Source of the DNA: Prevotella sp. | Lineage (GTDB): Bacteria > Bacteroidota > Bacteroidia > Bacteroidales > Bacteroidaceae | NCBI GenBank assembly: GCA_017619375.1 | Contig: JAFZSL010000017.1 | Span: 1-64,000 of the forward strand | DNA: 64,000 nucleotides | Reading direction: 5' to 3' | In this document: piece after piece, positions 29,704 through 53,511 of the stretch | Position numbering within the stretch: the first letter of the stretch is position 1 | Layout: each line of letters starts with the position of its first letter | Notes under the pieces: model-generated | The model's input: only the letters and a program-made list of their open reading frames with translations | What the model was told of the DNA's origin: nothing | Database searches by the model: none | Translations under genes and position numbers: made by a program

Positions 29704-30657
29704 ATGTCACCTACCGTCATCGCATTAATCGTCATAGTCGTTCTTGTGGCCATCCTGGCTAAGAAAACATTGGTCGTCATACCACAGTCGGAAACGAAAA
29801 TCATTGAAAGGCTTGGAAAATATCACGCCACTTTGGAGCCTGGCATCAATATCATCATTCCTTTCATCGATGCTGCAAAAAGCATGGTCACCATGAGCCA
29901 TGGGAGGTATGTCTATTCCAATTCCATCGACCTAAGGGAGCAAGTCTATGACTTCCCCAAGCAGAATGTCATCACCAAGGATAACATCCAGATGGAAATA
30001 AATGCCTTGCTCTACTTCCAAATCTTCGACCCTTTCAAGGCGATGTATGAAATCAATAACCTGCCAGCCGCCATAGAGAAACTCACTCAAACCACATTGA
30101 GAAACATCATCGGCGAGATGGAACTGGACCAAACCCTCACCTCGAGAGACACCGTGAACACCAAACTGCGTGCCGTGCTCGACGAGGCCACCGACAAATG
30201 GGGCGTCAAGGTCACCAGGGTGGAGTTGCAGGACATCATGCCGCCGCAAAGCGTGCTCATGGCCATGGAGAAGCAGATGCAGGCGGAAAGAAACAAGCGT
30301 GCCGTCATCCTCACCAGCGAAGGCGAGAAGCAGTCGCAAATCCTGAAGTCGGAAGGCGAGAAAGCCGCCACCATCAACAAGGCTGAGGCGCTCAAACAGA
30401 AAACCATCCTTGAGGCGGAAGGTGTGGCTCAAGCACGCATCAGAAAGGCTGAGGCCGAAGCCGTCGCCATCCAGCGAATCACCGAGGCCGTGGGCGACTC
30501 CTCCAACCCTGCCAACTACCTCTTGGCACAGAAATACATTCAAATGATGCAAGACCTGGCCACCGGACAGGACGCCAAGACCGTCTATCTGCCTTATGAG
30601 GCCACCAACCTGCTGGGGAGTTTGGGAGGCATCAAGGATCTTTTCAACAATAAATAG
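29704..30657 (+). CDS. SPFH/band 7 protein (QmcA/paraslipin-like)
   Basis: A 317-aa stomatin-like protein. One N-terminal membrane helix (about 3-20) is followed by the band 7 domain (VVIPQSETKIIERLGKYHAT, then PFIDAAKSMVTMSHGRY) and an Ala/Glu/Lys-rich coiled coil (about 190-270) that drives oligomerisation. The start at 29704 places the helix at the N-terminus; the frame is open further upstream but overlaps nfeD. Paired NfeD/SPFH proteins form large membrane cages linked to protein quality control and lipid order. Confidence 0.9.
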   Translation: MSPTVIALIVIVVLVAILAKKTLVVIPQSETKIIERLGKYHATLEPGINIIIPFIDAAKSMVTMSHGRYVYSNSIDLREQVYDFPKQNVITKDNIQMEINALLYFQIFDPFKAMYEINNLPAAIEKLTQTTLRNIIGEMELDQTLTSRDTVNTKLRAVLDEATDKWGVKVTRVELQDIMPPQSVLMAMEKQMQAERNKRAVILTSEGEKQSQILKSEGEKAATINKAEALKQKTILEAEGVAQARIRKAEAEAVAIQRITEAVGDSSNPANYLLAQKYIQMMQDLATGQDAKTVYLPYEATNLLGSLGGIKDLFNNK

Positions 30658-30663
30658 GAACGT

Positions 30664-31779
30664 ATGAACATTTGCATTGTGGCAGGCGCAAGACCCAATT
30701 TCATCAAGGTCGCGCCTATCATGAGAGCTATAGAGAAAGCAAAAGAGCAGGGGAAGAACCTGCAATGCCAACTGGTGTATGCCGGAATGGAAAGCGACAG
30801 CACCTTGGAACAGTCGCTCTTCGATGACCTGCAGATGAGAAGGCCCGATGTCTTCCTGGGGGTGGAGTGCACCAGCCTGAACGAACTTACCGGGAGGGTG
30901 ATGGGAGAGTTTGAGAAATACCTCGAAACTCATCCCACCGACGTCGTCATCGTCGTCGACGACCTCGCATCAACCATGGCTGCGGCCATCGTCACCAAGA
31001 AGCAAGGCATCAAACTGGCGCACCTCGTGGCCGGGACAAGGTCCTTCGACATCAAGATGCCAAAGGAAATCAACCGGCTCGTCATCGACGGACTTTCTGA
31101 CCTGCTCTTCACCGCAGGGGCGGGAGCCAGCAACATCGTCACCAGGGAAGGTGTGCACCTCTCGCAGGTATACCAGGTGGGCAACATCCTCATGGACTCC
31201 CTCAGGGCCAACCATCCTCGTCTGAAAAGGCCGGAGGTGCTGGAACAATTCAAGGTGGAGGATGGGCAATATATCGTCTTCACCCTCAACAGGAAGGCGC
31301 TCATCGCCAATGACAACAACTTGAGGCTCATGCTCAAGGCCATCCTCGAGGCCGCCAATGGCATGCCTGTCATAGCACCGCTGCGACAACTCGCCAAGGA
31401 GAAGGTGGCAAACCTGTTGACCACCATCGATGAACCTCTTGACCACTTCCACCTCGTGGAACCCATGGGATACCTGGAATTCGGATACCTCACCGCCCAT
31501 GCCAAAGGAATCGTCACCGATTCGGGCAACGTGGCGGAGGAGGCAACGTTCAACAGCGTCCCTTGCGCCACCCTCAACAGTTACACCGAACACATCGAAA
31601 CCGTCAAGGTGGGTTCCAACATCCTTGTGGGAGAGGAACCGCAAAGGCTCAAGGAAGCCGTCGCCGACATGGTGGAAGGCAAGTGGAAGAAAAGCAACAT
31701 CCCCGACAGATGGGATGGCAGGGCTTCTGAGCGAATCGTGCAAATATTGCTTTCGGAATTTCAGAATACATCAAGATGA
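30664..31779 (+). CDS. wecB: UDP-N-acetylglucosamine 2-epimerase (non-hydrolysing)
   Basis: A 371-aa cytoplasmic enzyme of the WecB/MnaA type, converting UDP-GlcNAc to UDP-ManNAc for surface polysaccharides. Motifs are AGARPNFIKVAPIMRAIEK at the N-terminus, VAGTRSFDIKMPKEINRL, and GNVAEEATFNSVPCATLNSYTEH near the C-terminus. It begins six bases after the SPFH gene and its stop overlaps the next ATG. The N-terminal GARPNF and acidic catalytic stretches are intact. No other surface-sugar genes are near, so its pathway is open. Confidence 0.9.
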   Translation: MNICIVAGARPNFIKVAPIMRAIEKAKEQGKNLQCQLVYAGMESDSTLEQSLFDDLQMRRPDVFLGVECTSLNELTGRVMGEFEKYLETHPTDVVIVVDDLASTMAAAIVTKKQGIKLAHLVAGTRSFDIKMPKEINRLVIDGLSDLLFTAGAGASNIVTREGVHLSQVYQVGNILMDSLRANHPRLKRPEVLEQFKVEDGQYIVFTLNRKALIANDNNLRLMLKAILEAANGMPVIAPLRQLAKEKVANLLTTIDEPLDHFHLVEPMGYLEFGYLTAHAKGIVTDSGNVAEEATFNSVPCATLNSYTEHIETVKVGSNILVGEEPQRLKEAVADMVEGKWKKSNIPDRWDGRASERIVQILLSEFQNTSR

Positions 31780-32021
31780 TTCCTTTGCTTGACATAGTAA
31801 GAAATCCAGACCCGGAGCGCGATGCGTTTTCATTCCCTTCCGAAGAAAAGAAACGAGTATGGGACATCGATGAGGACTCCATAGGCTCTGTTCGTGAAGT
31901 GGCAGAAAAGGCTTCTTTAGAACACGCTTTGTTGCTCTGGATTTTGATTGCTCTTCTTGCATTGGCCATCGTCATCTTCCTGGCACTCCGATGGAGGAAA
32001 AGGAAAAGACTAAAAGGATGA
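31776..32021 (+). CDS. Small tail-anchored membrane protein, unknown
   Basis: An 81-aa protein whose ATG overlaps the wecB stop (ATGA), so it is translationally coupled. The first 45 residues are hydrophilic and acidic; one transmembrane helix (about 49-70, ALLLWILIALLALAIVIFLA) is followed by RWRKRKRLKG. This is a tail-anchored or single-pass arrangement with a basic cytoplasmic end. No family is recognised. Coupling suggests it may tether or assist WecB or the preceding membrane proteins. Confidence 0.7.
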   Translation: MIPLLDIVRNPDPERDAFSFPSEEKKRVWDIDEDSIGSVREVAEKASLEHALLLWILIALLALAIVIFLALRWRKRKRLKG

Positions 32022-32028
32022 ACTTACG

Positions 32029-32091
32029 GGCGGCCAAATGCCTCTTACTTCAATCCTGTTTTAGAGATAGAGACATCATTGCCGCCTTTTT
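32029..32091 (+). terminator. Terminator of the wecB operon
   Basis: GGCGGC with adjacent AAATG (from 32029) pairs with CAT and GCCGCC (to 32086), followed by TTTTT at 32087-32091. The loop is long, about 40 bases. It ends directly before the tRNA-like sequence. Confidence 0.5.
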
Positions 32092-32092
32092 G

Positions 32093-32215
32093 GGACTGGT
32101 CGTCTAATGGTTAGGACGCATGCGAATCTTAGTGGTATGATTATCTGTGAAGGTCCAAATATCACTTACTTCTTTTTCCTGGCGTGAGATGTTGGTTCGA
32201 GTCCAACCCAGTCTA
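32093..32215 (+). tRNA. tRNA-like gene with a 58-nt anticodon loop (interrupted or degenerate)
   Basis: The acceptor stem is GGACTGG (32093-32099) with CCAGTCT (32208-32214), seven pairs with a terminal G-T. T8-C9 is followed by D-arm GTCT-AATGGTTA-GGAC (32102-32117), close to a tRNA-Glu D-arm. The anticodon stem is CATGC (32119-32123) with GCGTG (32182-32186), the variable loop is AGAT, and the T-arm is GTTGG-TTCGAGT-CCAAC (32191-32207). The loop at 32124-32181 is 58 nt instead of 7. It contains an 8-bp hairpin (32131-32138 with 32159-32166). CCA is not encoded; TTTTTT follows at 32220. No removable stretch leaves a normal loop with U33 and purine 37, so it may be a pseudogene, an intron-bearing tRNA with unknown splicing, or a tRNA-like regulatory RNA. 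Confidence 0.6.
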
Positions 32216-32230
32216 CAAGTTTTTTATATG

Positions 32231-32270
32231 ATAGTCGGAGGAACCGGAAAAGCCCGGTTCCTCCGACTAT
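32231..32270. terminator. 17-bp perfect hairpin
   Basis: Arms 32231-32247 and 32254-32270 (ATAGTCGGAGGAACCGG and complement) are perfectly paired around AAAAGC. It lies between the tRNA-like gene and the convergent cobC and may end transcripts from either side. GTCGGAGGAATC words continue to about 32330 and recur at 40517-40600. Confidence 0.6.
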
Positions 32271-52782: not shown

Positions 52783-53511
52783 TTACTCTATTTCAAAATA
52801 TTTAAGGAACTCTTTTTCTAGTTCTGTCTCGTCTCCGAATATTTTATGAATGACGGCTTTGTAGTCGAAGTCGTAACGTTTAGAAGTCTCAATTACTTTA
52901 TTTACATTGGGTTTAAATGCTTCCAACCTTTTGTCATTAGGAGCTAATTTAAAACATTTAATTACCTCATCAAATATTTGGTTCAAAGTCTCTTGGGCTT
53001 CTTTTCTAGCCTCTTCGCTCTGTTTTCTAGCCTCTTCGCTCTGTTTTCTAGCCTCTTCGCTAAGTTGATTGAGATATGCTTTTAATCCATTTCCGTATTT
53101 TTCACGGCATTGTTCCCACTTGTTGTCCTCATTTAGCGATAAATAATCATCGTATCTTTTATCATTTCCGTCACCTCCATAGTAAAGATAATCATTAGTG
53201 AGTTCTGTAAAGCATTCACTTAAAAGGAAAAGGTATTGGTCTTGCTTGTTGATTCCCATGTCCTCTTTCATCTGCTCCACGATGAACTTTTCCGTATAAT
53301 CGATTACATTTTTAGACTGGCAGATTTTGTATTTCTCGATGAACTTCCTTGCCTCAGCATAGTAATTGTCAGGTAGTTTGAGATTGAGTGCCTTGTTGAG
53401 TCGGTCCACGAGATTCTCCTGCGCAAGCATTTGCGTGGGTGTGAGTGCAAATATGAAGGCAAGCACCGCTGCTATAAGCAAATAGGATTTATTATTTTTC
53501 ATATATGACAT
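52783..53511 (-). CDS. Secreted protein of unknown function with QSEEARK repeats
   Basis: A 242-aa exported protein; the signal peptide runs to about TPTQMLAQ (residue 31), and Met4 is an alternative start. The mature part is helical and charged (YYAEARKFIEKYKICQSKNV, EKFIVEQMKEDMGINKQDQY). Three exact heptads of QSEEARK type (about 148-170) should form a coiled coil. No family is recognised. The coding sequence is noticeably more AT-rich than its neighbours, and together with the AT-rich flanks it suggests recent acquisition. It has a full consensus promoter in a palindromic element. Confidence 0.65.
   Translation of the reverse strand: MSYMKNNKSYLLIAAVLAFIFALTPTQMLAQENLVDRLNKALNLKLPDNYYAEARKFIEKYKICQSKNVIDYTEKFIVEQMKEDMGINKQDQYLFLLSECFTELTNDYLYYGGDGNDKRYDDYLSLNEDNKWEQCREKYGNGLKAYLNQLSEEARKQSEEARKQSEEARKEAQETLNQIFDEVIKCFKLAPNDKRLEAFKPNVNKVIETSKRYDFDYKAVIHKIFGDETELEKEFLKYFEIE
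53002..53064. repeat. 21-bp in-frame tandem repeat, three copies
   Basis: Three exact copies of a 21-base unit (CTCTTCGCTCTGTTTTCTAGC register) encode the QSEEARK heptads. The unit length keeps the frame, so copy number can change without truncating the protein. Confidence 0.85.

Follow-up and report, generated by a model that had tools for sequence, protein, structure and literature searches.

A spacer behind a wecB-like gene of Prevotella sp. carries what is probably a noncoding module with two Y-RNA-like parts, a stand-alone hairpin and a tRNA mimic with a docking stem, that is bound by a RING protein and serves a non-translational role; we put the probability of this reading at about 0.6. 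Instead of serving translation, the RNA seems to be part of an RNA-handling system about which little is known. Both parts lie in the window, by which we mean the whole 64,000-nucleotide stretch of DNA that was analyzed (Table 1).

Table 1. Features of the wecB downstream spacer, in window positions
Feature	Position	Strand	Evidence or description
Epimerase_2 (wecB-like) gene	30664..31779	+	Pfam; free hairpin begins 249 nt past gene end
81-aa ORF	31776..32021	+	Ends 6 nt before the hairpin at 32028-32087
Free-standing Y-stem hairpin	32028..32087	+	Model R3, 52.7 bits
Helix A of free hairpin	32028-32034 / 32081-32087		Internal loop CAA / CATT
Helix B of free hairpin	32038-32045 / 32069-32076		UACUUC after the 5' strand
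T-run ending helix A (GCCGCC-TTTTT)	32087..32091	+	Terminator-like; conserved in three orthologues; function predicted
tRNA-shaped RNA, Y-stem in anticodon position	32093..32215	+	Rfam tRNA, 42.4 bits; 18-sequence covariation; acceptor 7 bp, D arm 4 bp, anticodon stem 5 bp, T arm 5 bp, discriminator A
Capped Y-stem in anticodon position (36 nt)	32131..32166	+	Covariation
Helix B of capped Y-stem	32131-32138 / 32159-32166		8 bp
Internal loop of capped Y-stem			GATT / CCAA
Helix A of capped Y-stem	32143-32146 / 32151-32154		4 bp; GNRA cap GUGA at 32147-32150
Motif GGUCCAA in capped Y-stem	32152-32158	+	
UACUUC element adjoining helix B	32167..32172	+	Common to hairpins and own-genome Ro60-locus RNAs

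The original prediction described a tRNA cloverleaf with a 58-nt anticodon loop at 32093-32215 and proposed a covariance-model search, which confirms it: the Rfam tRNA model (RF00005) aligns over all 71 of its positions (42.4 bits, gathering threshold 29, E 9.6e-8), and 58 nt separate the two halves of the anticodon stem in place of an anticodon loop. The 8-bp hairpin predicted inside that loop is also present, together with an inner, GNRA-capped 4-bp helix that the prediction had lacked. The sequence does not have the 7-nt anticodon loop with U33 of a functional tRNA; ARAGORN reports no tRNA in the 64-kb window, and a fast-filter Rfam scan of the whole window misses the match. The minimum-energy fold of the lone sequence contains no cloverleaf and is of ordinary stability (z -1.09; 32 of 200 shuffles equal it). 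The case for a tRNA-shaped RNA therefore rests on comparison.

A DNA search with 151 nt across 200 genomes of the genus found one homologue besides the own copy (genome G049; 82% identity over 147 of the 151 bases), which lies between wecB and cobC as in the window. These two sequences differ by both-sided changes in two anticodon-stem pairs; with no more than two sequences, the shuffle control falls short of significance (123 of 500). The covariance model built from the pair (R1) matched stretches of 119-127 nt in at least 10 of 398 genus genomes, a lower bound given that the best eight candidates per genome were scored and the tRNA-type RNAs of G042 and G162 were missed; the other matches listed are 66-72 nt, ordinary tRNA length. 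Scanning a genome collection of 84,980 species for the capped stem gave 11 matches, ten labeled Prevotella or Prevotellaceae and one "bacterium P3," all of which lie within tRNA-type RNAs as judged by R1. A further member, in an array preceding a RING gene, comes from another family of the same order (G583). It was the useful result of the order-wide search with model R2, which gave matches in every one of the 393 genomes, for the most part of tRNA length; with eight candidates per genome scored, that search is uninformative on absence elsewhere. Phage records (18) gave short matches in the T-arm region only, covering at most 26% of the query, and plasmids gave none, so that both were rejected as sources. 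Pattern scans of viral contigs returned 30, 3, and 0 stretches, of which the 15 examined look like chance matches, and no relative of wecB or of the RING protein was confirmed in viral contigs. A gathering-threshold Rfam scan of six array loci for known ribozymes or riboswitches returned tRNA only (16 matches).

Eighteen sequences were compared. In the model-fitted alignment, which leans towards its own model, 94.9% of 574 cells are paired (shuffled mean 74.8%; none of 500 shuffles attains the observed value), 25 of 33 pairs show changes in both partners, and versions of the structure slid out of register reach at most 41.9%. Manual segmentation, with the variable-loop length picked for best anticodon-stem pairing, gives 94.4% with every helix above all 300 shuffles; its weak spots are the fifth anticodon pair (paired in 10 of 18) and pairs 4, 5, and 6 of helix B (13, 11, and 14 of 18). 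The set omits a weaker match (L110:2048-2201), the arm-poor forms, and the later-found G583 member, and it includes two mutually similar RNAs each from G080 and from Prevotella ruminicola KHT3, the carrier of array L108. All six helices covary, including the insert stem; the compensatory changes that the original prediction had proposed to look for are therefore there, its view that the locus is not simply decaying is borne out, and its option of a tRNA-like regulatory RNA stands as regards the tRNA-like RNA. U8, A14, the D-loop GG, and TTCGA occur in 18 of 18 sequences, and the tertiary pair 15-48 is G-C in 13, A-U in 4, and A-G in 1; the tRNA body is thus retained.

The Y-stem also exists as a free-standing hairpin, and neither the copy at 32028-32087 nor the link to a RING protein figured in the original prediction. 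The hairpin opens at helix A and is closed at the other end, the reverse of the capped Y-stem, and it is conserved in genomes G049 and G212, with one helix A pair changing from C-G to U-A. It is the only match of hairpin model R3 in its genome at E <= 0.01, having itself been one of the 22 sequences from which R3 was built; an R3 match at window position 52907-52970 (19.2 bits) looks like chance. In the 64-kb window the motif GG[UCA]C(N)AA...C[UA]UAC is present at two places, each within this element. Ten sources (215 kb including the window) contain 31 such places, every one of which, on inspection by eye, belongs to an RNA of this kind; loosening the regular expression brought in two further loci (L148 and L149) where no RNA was recognized. 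A crude filter of 60 motif places in 23 sources yielded 41 candidate hairpins, of which 38 have 11 or more of the 15 pairs, with many pair types among them, the partner placement having been picked by best score, which favors pairing; two of the other three are misfiled tRNA-type stems (L047 9402 and L048 9740). Free hairpins and tRNA mimics are mixed in arrays elsewhere (for example L046, L047, and L048). Reading by eye suggests a third array RNA form, with an acceptor, a T arm, and a Y-stem but apparently no D or anticodon arms (L046:8334-8423 and counterparts in L047, L048, and L113).

The arrays are followed by a gene whose 754-aa product matches Prok-RING_4 below threshold. This protein scores 169.6 bits (E 9.6e-50) against the MXAN_6230/SCO0854 RING family (NF041916), under the equivalog cut-off of 600, and by this measure is a relative of the family and not an equivalog. 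The window's own genome encodes it at G000:C61:172391-174643. Among the 398 genus genomes it is found in 54 (two as fragments), including all 10 that carry tRNA-type RNAs and 44 of the 388 others (Fisher 9.8e-10, counting genomes as unrelated). In held-out genus genomes R3 matched 33 of 34 with the RING protein and none of 34 without it. The former set comprised 34 of the 39 RING-positive genomes outside the building of R3, leaving out G045 and G094 (fragment matches) and G080, G176, and G263 (loci already inspected); the latter was a non-random draw of 34 low-numbered genomes from 344. In G068, the only genome missed, searching the stretch before the RING gene alone brings up a hairpin match (30.3 bits) at a distance of 30 nt. 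Same-strand placement 9-254 nt upstream of the RING protein match holds for 31 of the 33 hairpins, 25 of them within 60 nt, and in G009 and G250 the hairpin and the RING gene are on different contigs. In the window's clade (G000, G049, and G212), the stretch before the RING gene itself showed no hairpin.

The RING protein was considered as a Ro60 homologue and, on sequence, rejected: it has no Pfam TROVE match, and hhalign against 23 Ro60-type proteins gives a probability near 0. No solved relative was found by sequence. A PRK00872-like gene adjoins the RING gene in the window's genome (L144:3774-4301), and a similar-looking gene is downstream of the tRNA-type RNA in G405 and G388 (L042 and L045).

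The combination of a tRNA-like module with a docking-type stem recalls the Y RNAs. YrlA has a large stem, in which its 5' and 3' ends pair, and a tRNA-like module whose arms are the acceptor, D, and T arms; the stem holds Rsr and the module holds PNPase, and in some species YrlA and rtcB share an operon (PMC8394870; PMC7790460). In the layout of the Rfam YrlA model (RF02553) the order within the stem is T arm, closed acceptor-like hairpin, D arm. Modification by DusA/TruB is a further trait of YrlA. The window RNA has the same three arms joined to a docking-type stem; however, whereas the YrlA stem is formed by the RNA's own ends, 32093-32215 ends at the acceptor and its stem is capped by GUGA, an open stem being found here only in the separate hairpin. 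Compared with YrlA, the window RNA is on its predicted fold a circular permutation, with its tRNA module open at the acceptor and its stem capped. Up to E 10 it gets no match from RF02553, and up to E 5 the hairpin model finds nothing in the genome's own Ro60 locus (L099); for these reasons we call it Y-RNA-like and not, by sequence, a YrlA member. Of the 10 genomes with tRNA-type RNAs, 6 have no TROVE match and 4, the window's among them, have one. With animal Y RNAs it shares the succession of lower stem, bulge, and upper stem, and GGUC(C/U)AA compares with GGUCCGA, which forms part of the Ro60 site and adjoins a bulge (PMC11277228); the free hairpins, which have no tRNA module, are similar in layout. 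The differences from animal Y RNAs are the extra UACUUC element and the likely partner, a RING protein with no detectable similarity to Ro60.

Ro60 itself deserves weighing. The window's genome encodes it, and the RNA could be a YrlA-like Y RNA of this Ro60/Rsr (TROVE) protein, with the RING protein a mere neighbor. The genome's Ro60 gene lies behind its own tandem tRNA-like RNAs, which have CUUACUUC in common with the window RNA and are partly matched by the Rfam YrlA model (43.5 bits, gathering threshold 69); TROVE occurs in 4 of the 10 RNA genomes, this one included, and in 18 of 388 others (Fisher 0.0012). The RING protein accompanies the RNA in all 10, however, and the failure of the hairpin model at the genome's own Ro60 locus also speaks against this reading, which we regard as unlikely though the strongest of the rivals; it is compatible with the preferred RING-bound module, since both proteins could bind. 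Somewhat less probable again is that the hairpins are cis-regulatory leaders of the RING gene (an attenuator or translational operator), with the window copy a relocated 3'-UTR element for processing or termination. The placement of most held-out hairpins just upstream of the RING gene fits, as does the run of helix A into a T-run in the window, but copies away from the RING gene exist in G009, G250, and G069, and the tRNA fold is left unexplained. As autoregulation, the leader function too is compatible with the preferred reading.

Two further rivals start from the tRNA half. tRNA introns are of the BHB type in archaea and group I introns in bacteria, and the RNA resembles an intron-bearing tRNA in where its insertion sits, namely the anticodon loop. 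A genuine tRNA gene carrying a short intron there, which some nuclease would cut and RtcB would join, is nevertheless improbable. Over every way of drawing seven loop nucleotides from the two flanks (about 15% expected from base composition), U33 and purine 37 occur jointly in 0-6 sequences, at best in 6 of 16 by number, when the 3' flank supplies the whole loop, and in 3 of 6 by share, so that no splice choice yields a conserved anticodon loop. The flanks between stem and insert vary from 0 to 8 and from 6 to 19 nt, one member having 0 nt between the two, and the insert motif also stands free of any tRNA. RtcB, probably the joining enzyme that an intron here would need, speaks for this reading: rtcB lies directly upstream of two arrays (L108 and L113), and among 19 same-genus genomes Pfam finds RtcB in 7 of 10 RNA carriers (in G375 a C-terminal fragment only) and in none of 9 controls. 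Yet G405, G388, and G328 (completeness 99, 93, and 99) carry the RNA and have no RtcB match. The interrupted tRNA offered by the original prediction is thus disfavored on loop bases, flank lengths, and RtcB distribution alike. We consider doubtful, on a par with the leader, a decoy RNA that would soak up anticodon nucleases or further toxins directed at tRNAs by looking like a tRNA with nothing to cut; the intact tRNA core, the missing anticodon, and the rtcB and WYL regulator genes near array L113 agree with a decoy, which alone leaves the conservation of the Y-stem and the hairpins lacking a tRNA unexplained. The original prediction's young pseudogene, a tRNA-Glu gene with an insertion, is refuted: the silence of ARAGORN and the ordinary lone-sequence folding are what it would lead one to expect, but all helices covary and relatives exist in other genomes of the genus and in another family of the order.

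In the RING-bound module that we prefer, the stem (an internal loop, GGUC-NAA / AUUACC, together with an 8-bp helix that has UACUUC on its flank) would most likely be bound by the RING protein (G000:C61), the likely partner of the RNA, perhaps joined by Ro60. A partner that handles tRNAs, such as processing, modification, or decay enzymes, or RtcB repair, would recognize the tRNA-shaped half. With one partner docked on the stem and the other on the tRNA half, the RNA would act as a tether or gate, as YrlA joins Rsr to PNPase; it would be neither spliced nor used in translation. With its T-run, the hairpin may terminate transcripts ahead of the tRNA mimic, and the RING protein may also dock on its own mRNA leader and so regulate itself. 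We observe the conserved fold, the co-occurrence with the RING protein, and the genomic positions; transcription of the RNAs, binding, tethering, and tRNA-type processing of their ends are inferences. A wider proposal, to which we give slightly less than even odds, is a second, Ro60-independent class of Y RNA, in which MXAN_6230/SCO0854-related RING proteins would bind a Y-like stem in three forms (own-gene leader hairpin, free hairpin RNA, and circularly permuted tRNA mimic), regulating themselves and tethering tRNA-handling enzymes.

Burroughs and Aravind reportedly described, in 2016, a novel tRNA-like molecule tied to SPFH/Band-7 modules in RtcB RNA-repair systems. A tRNA-like RNA with a link to RtcB repair is common to both descriptions, and an SPFH gene lies upstream in the window; however, the closest correlate here is the RING protein, and SPFH is also found upstream of wecB in 16 of 28 loci that have no motif, on which ground an SPFH-linked RNA was rejected. 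An earlier description, for example theirs, may nonetheless concern the same RNA. Among the titles and abstract openings of the matches listed from the open-licence PMC literature, outside which most subscription papers fall, none describes this RNA, and that literature contains no mention of MXAN_6230 or SCO0854. If the reading is true, the tRNA-mimic and docking-stem design of Y RNAs occurs in either circular permutation and can have a protein besides Ro60 as its partner, and an uncharacterized RING family, sometimes beside RtcB, gains a testable RNA-protein pair. For annotation it is a warning, as tRNA finders miss such genes or would label them interrupted tRNAs.

A wecB match was found in 57 of 70 genus genomes, and 30 of the loci were examined for the motif; the original prediction had proposed to align the spacers downstream of wecB. 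The RNA is kept in G049, and the motif is absent in the remaining 28 of 30 loci (two of them with shorter flanks), so that within 900 nt downstream of wecB only the window's genome and G049 have it. R1 on the same loci matched these two genomes and one stretch of 72 nt. G212, outside the 30-locus draw, also has the motif after wecB (L049). With the motif missing from 28 loci and no hairpin before the RING genes of the window's clade, the copy in the wecB spacer looks like a relocation. The intervening 81-aa ORF has no Pfam match and no protein match among the 29 other relatives searched.

The Bacteroidetes-type promoter box is TAnnTTTG, and none was found on the + strand of 30601-32230; the window RNAs may consequently be made only within a longer transcript, cut from that of the upstream genes. 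Between the RNA and a convergent cobC-like gene is a perfect 15-bp GC-rich inverted repeat (32233-32268), with TCCGA repeats after it; the two may share this region as a terminator. In the window's genome, the tandem RNAs directly upstream of the Ro60 (TROVE) gene (L099:810-1320 in G000:C3; gene at 1349-2899) are Y RNAs with circularly permuted tRNA modules, and when they are read across two neighbors the tRNA model matches too, with a 75-nt loop. A WYL-domain regulator gene is divergent from rtcB and the RNA array at L113:218-1243 (Pfam) and L108:2410-3528 (similar by eye), which suggests regulated expression. In G009, at a locus with no tRNA-type match and with the RING gene on another contig, a free Y-like hairpin (L224:1586-1648) sits right behind a promoter-like box, TATATTTG, and is possibly a stand-alone RNA of 60 nt.
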